Below are positions 32,737-37,486 of a stretch of 64,000 bases of DNA, piece after piece. Under the pieces are notes generated by a model. The model was not told the DNA's origin. It did no database searches and saw nothing but the letters and a program-made list of their open reading frames with translations. Position 1 is the stretch's first letter. The number at the start of each line of letters is the position of its first letter. The DNA is from Candidatus Sulfopaludibacter sp. SbA3 (GTDB taxonomy: Bacteria > Pseudomonadota > Alphaproteobacteria > Caulobacterales > Hyphomonadaceae), in the NCBI GenBank assembly GCA_945888325.1, contig CAMDAC010000010.1:1-64000 (forward strand), given 5' to 3'. The translations under genes and the position numbers were made by a program.

Positions 32737-33606
32737 TCAGGGGCTTTCCGGCGCCGCCGGCAAGGCGCCAATCGACCGCAAGGCCCGCTCCACCGCCGCG
32801 CGGCGTTTGGGGGCTTCGGCCATGCCGCCGGGCATGTCCATGTTCAGCGCGAAGACGTACGTGCCGGGTGCCTCACCGGCGGTCTGCTCGGCCCAGCCGA
32901 CGAACCAGCCGATATCCATCTCGCCCTCGACGCTCTTCCAGCCGGTCTTCCCGTAGAGCGTCCAGCTGTCGCCGCGCGCCAGCTCCATGACCGGGATCGC
33001 CGCTACGTAGGTCTCCGCCGAGAGCGGCAGCGTCCGGCGCACGAGGCGCGACAGGAAGGCGGCCTGCTCCGCCGCCGAGATCGCCAGCGGCCCCTCGAGC
33101 CAGTAGCGCGAGATACTCTCGGGTCCGCCAATATCGGCATTGCCATAGCCGAAGGCCTCGAACGCGGCCGTCAGCCTCTCGGCGCCGATCCTCGGCACGA
33201 CGATCTGGTAGATCCACACCGTCGAGCGCTGGAAAGCCGTCGCAAAATCCTGGTCCTCGTTCCAGCTGTCGAGGAAGCGTTTCTCGCCATCCCACTTGAA
33301 CCACTCGCCGGGGCCCGTCACCGCGTCCGTCTCGTAGGCGAGCAGGGTGTGCGGGATCTTTGAGGTCGAGGCCGGCGTGAACCGCTCGTGAATGCGCGCC
33401 CCGCCGCTGGACCAGACATGCTCGTCCTCCAGCCTCAGGATGACGAGGGCGGACGCAGACGGGTCAATGCCTTCGGCCCGAAGCGCGCCTTCCATCAGCG
33501 CCATCTCGGCGACCGGCGCAGGCGTCTCAGGCGCAGTAGCGCATCCCGCGAGGGCACAGACTGCCAGCAATGGCCCGATCAGCAACCTGCGCAGGAGGCC
33601 TGCCAT
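32737..33606 (-). CDS. Class D (OXA-like) beta-lactamase-family lipoprotein
   Basis: The 289-residue protein has a lipobox (CALAGC, Cys22) and all class D motifs: Ser80-Thr-Ser-Lys83 (PASTSK), Ser128-Thr-Val130 (QRSTVW), Tyr154-Gly-Asn156 and Lys220-Thr-Gly222 (YGKTGW), plus RYWLEGPL and GWFVGWAE. The serine acylates beta-lactams and Lys83 is normally carboxylated. It may hydrolyse penicillins or oxacillin-type drugs; the spectrum is not predictable. It lies 10 nt downstream of ssb and 179 nt before gyrA, on the same strand, with no mobile element around it, so it looks intrinsic. Confidence 0.9.
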   Translation of the reverse strand: MAGLLRRLLIGPLLAVCALAGCATAPETPAPVAEMALMEGALRAEGIDPSASALVILRLEDEHVWSSGGARIHERFTPASTSKIPHTLLAYETDAVTGPGEWFKWDGEKRFLDSWNEDQDFATAFQRSTVWIYQIVVPRIGAERLTAAFEAFGYGNADIGGPESISRYWLEGPLAISAAEQAAFLSRLVRRTLPLSAETYVAAIPVMELARGDSWTLYGKTGWKSVEGEMDIGWFVGWAEQTAGEAPGTYVFALNMDMPGGMAEAPKRRAAVERALRSIGALPAAPESP

Positions 33607-33616
33607 CCGGACAGCC

Positions 33617-34108
33617 TCAGAACGGGATCTCGTCGTCGAGGTCCTGGTTGAAGCTCTCCTTCGGGCCGCTCATCGTGCGGCTCGCGCCGCCACCACCGCC
33701 GCCCGAATAGCCCATGTCGCGGCCACCGCCGCCGCTGCTCGCGCCGCCGCCTTCGCCGCGCCCGTCGAGCATCACGAGGGTCGCGTCAAAGCCCTGCAGC
33801 ACGATCTCGGTCGTGTAGCGGTCATTGCCGTCCTTATCCTGCCACTTTCGGGTCTGCAACTTGCCTTCGATGTAAACCTTGGAGCCCTTCTTGAGGTAGC
33901 TCTGGGCGACCTTGATCAGGCCTTCCGAAAAGATCGACACGGCGTGCCACTCGGTCTTTTCCTTTTTCTCGCCGGTCGCCTTGTCGCGCCAGTTCTCGGA
34001 CGTTGCGATCCGCAAGTTGCACACCTGTCCGCCGTTCTGGAACTGCTTCACTTCCGGGTCTGCCCCCAGATTGCCTACCAGGATTACCTTGTTCACTGAG
34101 CCCGCCAT
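33617..34108 (-). CDS. ssb: Single-stranded DNA-binding protein
   Basis: The 163-residue SSB has the OB-fold ([40 protein letters not shown]), a Gly/Ser-rich linker and the conserved acidic tip LDDEIPF that recruits repair and replication proteins. A strong GGAGG lies 6 nt before the ATG at 34106-34108, which rules out a longer in-frame start. A GTTC-N7-GTTC box 128 nt upstream suggests SOS control shared with the divergent uvrA side. Confidence 0.97.
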
Positions 34109-34235
34109 GAGGACCTCCGTTTTCTGTTTCGCTATCGATTCGAACTCTAATACGCTCCGGCACGTGAAATGTCGCCTCAAAGGCGATGAATTCCACCGCC
34201 GCTTTCAGCTGCGGCCAAAAGCAGCTTGCACCATT

Positions 34236-34250
34236 GTTCACACTTTGTTC
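34236..34250. promoter_or_regulatory. SOS box (LexA site, alphaproteobacterial type)
   Basis: GTTC (34236-34239), seven bases (ACACTTT) and GTTC (34247-34250) exactly match the direct-repeat GTTC-N7-GTTC LexA consensus of alphaproteobacteria. It lies in the 217-nt gap between ssb (-) and a 48-codon ORF plus uvrA (+). The ssb-uvrA divergent SOS region is also known in other bacteria, which supports the call. Confidence 0.8.
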
Positions 34251-34325
34251 TTGTCGTCAATCCGGACTCGCGGCACAGATCAGAAAAGGCTGTTTCGCCA
34301 AAGTCTGTTTTGAAGAGATCAGTAG

Positions 34326-34472
34326 ATGCCTGACACCCTTACCGCCTTCGTTGTTGCTGCCATGCTGGTCTTGGCCATCGTCTGGTTCGTGATCATATCG
34401 AAAGCCCTGTCCGACAAGCCGAAGGCCGAGGCATTTTTTTCCCGCCACAAAACGCCTAAAGACATCCTGTAA
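34326..34472 (+). CDS. Small single-pass membrane protein (48 aa) between the SOS box and uvrA
   Basis: The ORF runs ATG to TAA and sits 76 nt after the SOS box and 42 nt before uvrA, in uvrA's orientation. The peptide has a 6-residue N-terminus, a hydrophobic helix at about 7-25 ([19 protein letters not shown]) and a basic cytoplasmic tail ([20 protein letters not shown]). This is a typical topology for a small inner-membrane protein. Codon choice is mostly GC-ending. A weak AGAG lies 10 nt before the ATG. I do not recognise a family. Its position predicts DNA-damage induction, similar in concept to Caulobacter SidA, a SOS-induced 29-residue division inhibitor, but no sequence similarity is claimed. 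Confidence 0.5.
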
Positions 34473-34513
34473 AACCTTTTTCCGTCCTTCCTCCCGAGCG
34501 AGCCCGAACGCCC

Positions 34514-37486
34514 ATGGCCGAATCCCCCTTCATCCGCGTGCGCGGCGCCAAGGAACACAATCTCAAGAACATCGACGTGGACATCCCGCGCGGTGAGCTT
34601 GTGGTGATGACGGGCCTGTCGGGCTCCGGCAAATCCTCGCTCGCCTTCGACACGATCTATGCCGAGGGCCAGCGCCGCTATGTGGAATCGCTGTCGGCCT
34701 ATGCGCGCCAGTTTCTCGAACTGATGCAGAAGCCGGACGTGGAGAGCATCGAAGGCCTCTCGCCGGCGATCTCCATTGAGCAGAAGACGACCAGCCGCAA
34801 CCCGCGCTCGACCGTCGGCACAGTCACCGAGATCTACGACTACATGCGCCTGCTCTGGGCCCGCGTCGGTGTGCCCTACTCGCCGGCCACCGGCCTGCCC
34901 ATCGAAAGCCAGACGGTCAGCCAGATGGTCGATCGCACGATGGAGCTACCGGACGGCACGCGCCTCTTCCTGCTCGCCCCGATCGTCCGTGGACGGAAAG
35001 GGGAGTACCGGAAGGAATTCGCCGAACTGCTGAAGAACGGCTTCCAGCGCGTCAAGGTCAACGGCACCTTCCACGAACTGGAAGACCCGCCAAAGCTCGA
35101 CAAGAAATTCAAGCATGACATCGACGTGGTCGTCGACCGGATCGTCGTGCGCGAAGGCATGCAGCAGCGCCTCGCCGAAAGCTTCGAGACCGCGCTCGGC
35201 CTCGCGCAGGGCATCGCCATTGCGGAGTATGCCGATATCGAGCCCGGCGAGACCGAAGCCAAGCGCATCAATTTCAGTGCCAACTTTGCCTGCCCGGTCT
35301 CCGGCTTCTCGATTCCCGAAATCGAGCCGCGCCTGTTCTCGTTCAACAATCCCTTCGGCGCGTGCCCCTCGTGCGACGGTCTCGGCGAGCAGCTGAAGAT
35401 CGACGCGGCGATGATTGTTCCGGACAAGGATATTGGCCTGCTCGACGGCGCCATCGCGCCCTGGGCCAAGTCCACCTCGCCTTACCAGACGCAGACGCTG
35501 CAAGCCCTCGCCGCGCATTACAAGTTCGACCTGACGAAGCCCTGGAACAAGCTGCCCGAGCGAATCCAGGACATCATCCTCCACGGCACCGGCGATGAGG
35601 AAATCCAGTTCCTCTATGACGACGGCATGCGCACCTACAAGACGAAGAAAACCTTCGAAGGCGTGATCCCGAACCTTGACCGTCGCTACCGCGAAACGGA
35701 CAGCGCCTGGGTGCGTGAGGAGATCGCGCGCTTCCAGTCCGCCGCGCCGTGCCCGGCCTGCGGCGGCAAGCGCCTGAAACCGCAAGCCCTCGCCGTGAAG
35801 ATCGCGGGCCTCGACATCTCTCAGGCCGGCGAATTCTCCATCCGCAAGGCGGGGGACTGGTTCGGCGGCGTCAACAAGACGCTGACGAAACAGCAGAAGG
35901 AAATCGCCGCGCGCATCCTGAAAGAGATCAACGACCGGCTGAATTTCCTCAATGATGTCGGCCTCGATTATCTCTCGCTCGGCCGCGCCTCCGGCACGCT
36001 GTCCGGCGGCGAAAGCCAGCGCATCCGGCTTGCCTCGCAGATCGGCTCCGGCCTCACCGGCGTGCTCTACGTGCTCGACGAGCCGTCCATCGGCCTGCAC
36101 CAGCGCGATAACGAGCGCCTGCTGGTGACGCTCCGCCGGCTGAGGGACCTGGGCAATTCGGTGATCGTGGTCGAACACGATGAAGACGCGATCCTGACCG
36201 CCGACCATGTCATCGACATGGGCCCGGCCGCCGGTGTGCATGGCGGCCAGATCATCGCCGAAGGCACGCCCGCCGAAGTAATGGCGAACCCGAAAAGTCT
36301 GACGGCGGACTATCTCAACGGCACGCGCGAGATTGCCATTCCCAAGCGCCGCCCGGTGACCAAAGGCTCTCGCAGCCTCGTCGTCAAAGGCGCGACGGGA
36401 AACAATCTCAAGAACGTAACCGCCTCGATCCCGCTCGGCACGTTTACCTGCGTCACCGGCGTCTCCGGCGGCGGCAAGTCCACGCTGATCATCGAGACGC
36501 TCTACAAGGCGCTCGCCCGCAAGCTCAACGGTTCCTCGGATTCGCCGGCGCCCTATGCCAGCCTTGAGGGCCTGCAGCATCTCGACAAGGTCATCGACAT
36601 CGATCAGTCGCCGATCGGGCGCACACCGCGTTCGAACCCCGCCACCTACACCGGCGCCTTCGGCCCGATCCGGGACTGGTATGCCGGCCTGCCGGAAGCG
36701 AAAGCGCGCGGCTATGCGCCGGGCCGGTTCAGCTTCAACGTCAAGGGCGGGCGCTGCGAAGCCTGCCAGGGCGACGGCGTCATCAAGATCGAGATGCACT
36801 TCCTGCCGGATGTCTACGTCACCTGCGAGACCTGCAAGGGCAAGCGCTACAACCGCGAAACGCTGGATGTGCACTTCAAGGGCAAGTCGATTGCCGACGT
36901 GCTGGACATGACGGTCGAGGACGGCGCGAAATTCTTCGCCGCCGTACCGGCGATTGCCTCGAAGCTCGACACGCTGAACCAGGTCGGACTCGGCTATGTG
37001 AAGGTCGGCCAGCAGGCCACGACGCTGTCCGGCGGCGAAGCCCAGCGCGTCAAGCTCGCCAAGGAACTCTCGAAACGCGCGACGGGCCGTACACTGTACA
37101 TCCTCGACGAGCCGACGACCGGCTTGCACTTCGAGGACGTGAAGAAGCTGCTCGAAGTCCTCCACGAACTGGTCGATGCCGGCAACACGATCGTCGTCAT
37201 CGAGCACAACCTCGACGTGGTGAAGACGGCCGACTGGGTGCTCGACCTTGGCCCCGAAGGCGGCGATGGCGGCGGCATGCTGATCGCGGCCGGTACGCCG
37301 GAAGAGATCGCGGCGATCCCGGAGAGCCACACAGGACGCTTCCTCGCCGAAACCTTCCGCCGCCACGACGAACGCCGCGCCCAGCGCAACAAGCGCGAGA
37401 AAGCGGCGGCTAAAACCGGCAAGGACGCGCCTGCCGAAAAGGCAAAGCCTACGAAGAAGTCAAAGGCCGGCGCCGGGGCTAAGTAA
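34514..37486 (+). CDS. uvrA: UvrABC excinuclease subunit A
   Basis: The 990-residue damage-recognition ATPase has two ABC modules: Walker [13 protein letters not shown] near residue 35, signature [18 protein letters not shown], second Walker [12 protein letters not shown] and second signature [15 protein letters not shown]. The zinc-binding region CEACQGDGV...CETCKGKRY is intact. The first zinc module has CPVSG where CxxC is usual, so one Cys is missing. The C-terminus has a Lys/Ala-rich extension of about 40 residues. It is preceded by the SOS box and the 48-aa ORF, and is likely SOS-induced. Confidence 0.98.

Follow-up and report, generated by a model that had tools for sequence, protein, structure and literature searches.

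A small membrane peptide gene between an SOS box and uvrA and its possible role in division control

A gene for a small peptide with one predicted membrane helix lies between an SOS (LexA) box and uvrA in the stretch of alphaproteobacterial DNA analysed here, which is 64,000 nucleotides long and is called the window. The peptide is a new family of SOS-associated small membrane peptide. Judged from sequence comparisons, its open reading frame (ORF) is very likely a real gene and looks like a lineage-specific one kept by purifying selection, and the peptide is likely to be SOS-induced together with uvrA. The favoured reading of its role, to which we give a probability of roughly 0.38, is that the peptide works like SidA and YneA, in that a lineage-specific, SOS-induced product would dock on the late divisome and delay division while UvrA repairs DNA. 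SOS division inhibitors are small, lineage-divergent and hard to find by homology, and close sister species that have the same box before uvrA but lack the peptide provide a natural control. Should the peptide prove to stop division, it would illustrate the birth of checkpoint genes by entry into an existing SOS operon and would serve as a new tool for probing how the divisome is regulated.

The SOS box and the ssb-uvrA region

The sequence-only reading of this DNA had described a perfect GTTC-N7-GTTC box followed by a small ORF with one membrane helix in front of uvrA; the box is present as an exact match, and the ORF and its single predicted helix were confirmed (Table 1). The start codon of the ORF lies 75 nt from the box. 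On the other side of ssb, an ORF on the minus strand (32737-33606) matches the Pfam Transpeptidase family (PF00905, E=4.2e-29); STSK and KTGW motifs and its shortness make it reminiscent of a class D beta-lactamase-like lipoprotein.

Table 1 Features of the ssb-uvrA region of the window
Feature	Position	Strand	Remarks
SOS (LexA) box GTTCACACTTTGTTC	34236-34250	+	exact GTTC-N7-GTTC match; putative LexA binding
Gene for 48-aa single-helix membrane peptide	34326-34472	+	ATG-started; open in 8/8 carriers
41-nt spacer, ORF to uvrA	34473-34513	+	without terminator-like site
uvrA, 990 aa	34514-37486	+	ORF; downstream gene of putative operon
ssb	33617-34108	-	divergent from same control region; Pfam SSB E=6.6e-37; presumed start at ATG 34108

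The box pattern by itself is not beyond chance. GTTC-N7-GTTC occurs four times in the 64-kb window against 1.75 expected, and at least four matches were found in 12 of 100 shuffles; over both strands of the genome there are 83 matches against 61 for the reversed control pattern, a modest excess. Another match, at 35024-35038 on the minus strand inside uvrA, is probably due to chance. The box before the ORF is credible because of its place upstream of uvrA and its conservation. At all 40 loci read from the genus, and at 38 of the 41 read from the other genera of the family, the 450 nt before uvrA include a perfect box, so that the box-uvrA arrangement is general in the genus and family loci read, and the box stands at the matching position in 16/16 closely compared loci (eight with the peptide ORF, called carriers, and eight without). 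Among the matches listed for named records, 80 loci were kept, one of which (L166) was left out for its short upstream DNA; of the remaining 79, mostly from Alphaproteobacteria, 37 show a perfect box in the 500 nt before the uvrA match. The uvrA query itself found a match in 105/105 family genomes, in some a partial one only. Because all 40 genus loci have the box and 32 of them have no ORF, the box is independent of the ORF. At three loci of another genus of the family (L048, L050 and L078) two perfect boxes lie about 97 and 195 nt before uvrA. Five genus loci (L020, L030, L033, L036 and L037) keep the SOS box and show a PAP2-like ORF in place of ssb, for which the 1200 bases before uvrA gave no match; the one such ORF tested (L033) matches PF14378 with E=1.2e-18.

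Elsewhere in this genome, 20 box regions, selected by similarity of their spacers from the 79 boxes outside the window, were read in depth. The pattern occurs at or just before lexA (Pfam LexA_DNA_bind and Peptidase_S24) and rmuC, and also at a Mg_chelatase/ChlI gene of the ComM type, a photolyase gene and a Peptidase_S24 ORF. Genes of sigma-70-type, radical-SAM and zinc-dehydrogenase proteins are also found near boxes, and after several boxes no clear gene follows. Ten box-linked ORFs were searched against Pfam and two had no match; one ORF without a Pfam match we take to be imuA.

A consensus scan of 34080-34700 found no promoter-like site on the plus strand; the sole site in this stretch is on the minus strand, over the box and facing ssb. 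The scan is insensitive, because it found no promoter for uvrA either. LexA binding and induction are accordingly putative, as is a joint transcript of the ORF and uvrA. The conserved box and the conserved position of the ORF support the SOS linkage that had been proposed for the peptide.

Distribution, coding status and history of the peptide gene

Of the 42 genus genomes searched by tblastn, eight have the peptide, uninterrupted and at the same place, between box and uvrA. For all but G032 and G035, in which no uvrA start was found on a contig, the DNA before uvrA was read, giving 40 loci (that of the window and 39 fetched ones). With a common point 18 nt before the likely ATG of ssb as origin, the gap between ssb and uvrA measures 385-392 bp in the eight carriers; their box starts 274-280 nt ahead of uvrA, and 41-44 nt, an operon-like spacing, separate the end of the ORF from uvrA. 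Eight non-carriers were picked as close relatives for comparison; their gap measures 208-212 bp, with the same perfect box starting 94-98 nt ahead of uvrA. The same box-uvrA arrangement with and without the ORF thus indicates that some lineages gained, or lost, about 180 bp of DNA that includes the ORF. In the box-uvrA gap of the non-carriers no peptide match was found, the sole tblastn match (E=5, in L048) lying outside the gap; some hydrophobic ORFs occur in their fetched regions and none matches the peptide. At L059, a strongly hydrophobic 31-aa ORF starting with TTG (hydropathy 2.79) shares sequence with both the SOS box and the uvrA start; the same filter did not see it in the genus mates L056, L057, L058 and L080.

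Searches beyond the genus gave no further member. A profile of the eight peptides yielded no convincing member beyond the carriers among 105 family genomes, where weak matches at E<=1 occur in 26 (best E 0.009), and none besides seven known carriers among 398 genomes drawn from the order. Six of these order genomes gave matches at E 0.001-0.009, all of them partial; four lie in reading frames 145-452 codons long and two in frames interrupted by a stop, and all six are read as chance. The peptide was absent from all 41 of the 63 family genomes outside the genus whose uvrA upstream region was fetched (that of L079 being incomplete). Between box and uvrA in the 37 boxed loci among the 79 listed for named records, no ORF of at least 25 aa with hydropathy above 1.6 was found, nor was any hydrophobic ORF found in the long box-uvrA gap of L062, L069 and L073. 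The conserved ORF looked for in the ssb-uvrA gap of relatives is thus present in 8/42 genomes of the genus and was found in no other genome searched. In Pfam the peptide has no match over the cut-off (MpPF26, E=0.005, and DUF2852, E=0.22, lie below it), in NCBIfam the window peptide has no match and only three single-member matches occur (E 0.02-0.9), and we read these Pfam and NCBIfam matches as chance similarity of membrane helices. No match was found in PDB. A phage origin was also considered: the window peptide alone was compared with viral contigs and none of 28 pattern matches was confirmed, which is negative for close relatives only.

A chance ORF is rejected on the grounds of conservation, codon models and simulation. 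All eight carriers have an ATG at the matching place and 47-48 codons (48 aa in seven carriers, 47 aa in one), with no indel over 47 codons. Codon models give an omega of 0.28-0.33 over the eight; under the MG model omega is 0.309, with lnL -826.56 against -846.39 at omega=1 (2 delta lnL 39.7, one parameter). Neutral evolution was simulated 400 times from the window sequence along the ORF's own tree: the frames all stayed open in 18 runs, the ATGs were all kept in 8, and both held in 0; the observed amino-acid similarity was reached in 2 of the 400. Mean helix hydropathy is 2.47 against a neutral mean of 1.79 (sd 0.27), the maximum of 200 simulations being higher, at 2.94. The +2 and +3 frames of the ORF have stops in most carriers, and openness alone proves little because one reverse frame is open in 6/8.

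A small ORF with hydropathy of at least 2.9 occurs in 0.25% of 2000 random 290-nt stretches of the window. The peptide ORF is the only one of such hydropathy found within 300 nt of the 83 boxes, a survey in which ORFs overrunning the fetched stretches could be missed; two weaker small ORFs near boxes have hydropathies of 2.69 and 2.33. A hydrophobic 36-aa ORF 6 nt after a second box of this genome (contig C2, 231674; L221/L270) was considered as a further box-linked peptide and rejected. Its SOS link looks fortuitous because its relatives in G022 and G024 have no box at up to one mismatch in the 1101 bases read.

In a tree of uvrA, ssb and gyrA from 21 genomes, for some of which genes are partial or missing, seven carriers (G000, G016, G026, G037, G038, G034 and G033) form a clade with support 100, the placement of G033 within it having support 54, and the non-carriers G023 and G027 are its sisters. 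The eighth carrier, G029, stands alone among non-carriers. Its locus (L009, L099) is a mosaic, in which the DNA before the box is like that of its own clade and the stretch before uvrA (TCCTCCCGAG) like that of the other, and in an unrooted tree of the ORF it groups with G038/G034 (93). The mosaic suggests that G029 acquired the peptide gene by transfer. An old gain with several losses may instead be the history; the grouping in the ORF tree agrees with either course, and the uvrA start does not discriminate between them. A somewhat unlikely view is that an orphan peptide was born within one genus between the LexA box and uvrA, that one transcript thereby couples excision repair to a division pause, and that the gene has since been lost and perhaps exchanged between species. 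If that coupling is real, a checkpoint gene would have been caught early in its life.

Peptide features and the proposed role

The predicted helix spans about 20 residues with a peak hydropathy of 3.11. The first six residues contain no K or R in 8/8 members, and the C-terminal tail carries 3-7 K/R and 1-4 D/E. The tail had been called basic, which is right for the window peptide (6 K/R, 3 D/E) and is not a constant feature, as the net tail charge ranges from 0 to +5 over the eight members. In other carriers the tail often reads FFFGxKPPKDP, from which that of the window peptide differs. The K/R-free N-terminus and the charged tail suggest a C-in orientation, so that by the positive-inside rule the topology is probably N-out, C-in. 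Residues M1, A11, L16, W20, I23, A27 and F38 are invariant, and L16, W20, I23 and A27 lie with the well conserved V9 within about 60 degrees of the helical wheel. The helical moment of conservation gave permutation p values of 0.018, 0.007 and 0.028 for three windows over these eight related sequences; the conserved face does not include A11, which is invariant, or the well conserved A17 and L28. This face hints at a specific membrane partner.

In the SidA/YneA-like reading, the ORF would be the first cistron of a LexA-controlled uvrA transcript. DNA damage would cause LexA cleavage, and the peptide would be made together with UvrA and insert in the inner membrane as one helix. The conserved face and the tail would then dock on a membrane protein, the likeliest partner belonging to the late divisome (FtsW/FtsI/FtsN), and septation would be delayed during excision repair. 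Such a SidA-analogue role is plausible because of the single membrane helix, the SOS placement and the conserved helix face; the divisome as the target is a guess by analogy. SulA has no match at E<=1 in the genome (PF03846), nor in the peptide by Pfam, and its lack is weak support because SulA is hardly expected here. The probably cytoplasmic tail and the lack of the gene in most relatives count against this role. The uvrA promoter of Caulobacter is described as induced late and as weaker than that of sidA (PMC12700426), which is a poor fit to a first-line division inhibitor. Absent from 32/40 genus loci, those of the sisters G023 and G027 included, the peptide is dispensable and cannot be a general checkpoint of the lineage. 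Nothing on such a peptide before uvrA was found among the literature matches listed or in the text consulted of PMC3567139 and PMC13384398.

A somewhat unlikely alternative is that the peptide is a repair or membrane accessory co-induced with UvrA whose task lies outside division, such as the modulation of a membrane protease or transporter. The ORF precedes uvrA in 8/8 carriers, and small single-helix proteins are frequent regulators of larger membrane proteins, but UvrA is cytoplasmic and most uvrA genes of the genus have no peptide. That the peptide is membrane-active in the manner of TisB and DinQ, lowering the proton motive force and slowing metabolism without divisome binding, is unlikely. 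Size class, single helix and LexA-type box fit, and DinQ is described as a LexA-controlled, 27-aa inner-membrane peptide that is depolarising on overexpression (PMC3567139). However, TisB and DinQ have antisense RNAs, whereas the insensitive consensus scan found no minus-strand promoter-like site inside the ORF or downstream to 34700, and the conserved helix face argues for a protein partner. It is improbable that the ORF is a leader whose translation tunes uvrA expression while the peptide itself is inert; its end at a near-constant distance before uvrA in 8/8 carriers would suit a leader, but selection acts on its amino-acid sequence (omega about 0.31), a face of its helix is conserved, and the genomes that lack it keep the same box in front of uvrA. 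Least credible is a functionless passing ORF, or one without LexA control: few genomes carry it, the window peptide has only 40-43% identity to the three most distant carriers, and dN exceeds dS on very few changes in two close pairs (0.047/0.029 and 0.124/0.075), yet the codon-model test, the neutral simulations and the lack of indels in eight genomes speak against it.

Comparison with known SOS membrane proteins

TisB and DinQ of Escherichia coli resemble the peptide in being small and hydrophobic, and they are under LexA control, which is proposed for the peptide from its LexA-type box; they differ as type I toxin-antitoxin systems with antisense RNA, no sign of one being seen at the peptide locus by the insensitive scan. 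DidA of Caulobacter is a small membrane division inhibitor induced by DNA damage, which acts on FtsN (PMC4211646); unlike the putative control of the peptide, its induction is SOS-independent, through DriD.

YneA of Bacillus subtilis, SosA of Staphylococcus aureus and ChiZ of Mycobacterium are damage-induced single-helix membrane proteins with the same helix plan as the peptide, and all are larger than 48 aa. YneA and ChiZ carry a LysM domain, which YneA needs, whereas the peptide has only a short, probably cytoplasmic tail, with no LysM listed in the Pfam scan up to E=1. YneA is reported to dock via its membrane helix on TM7 of FtsW, and low-confidence models place ChiZ, SosA and SidA on the same TM7, SidA on the opposite side (PMC13396833). 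Because YneA without its LysM domain did not block division (PMC13396833), a helix and a short tail need not suffice for a division block.

SidA, described as a 29-aa inner-membrane protein of Caulobacter crescentus that is SOS-controlled and acts on FtsW (PMC4211646), is compared with the peptide by description, not by sequence. Both are very small, single-helix and alphaproteobacterial, and SOS control is common to them if that proposed for the peptide holds; SidA has 29 aa and a shown FtsW interaction, whereas the peptide has 48 aa and is encoded before uvrA. The use of small, mutually unrelated membrane proteins to arrest division at a late step recurs among SOS responses.
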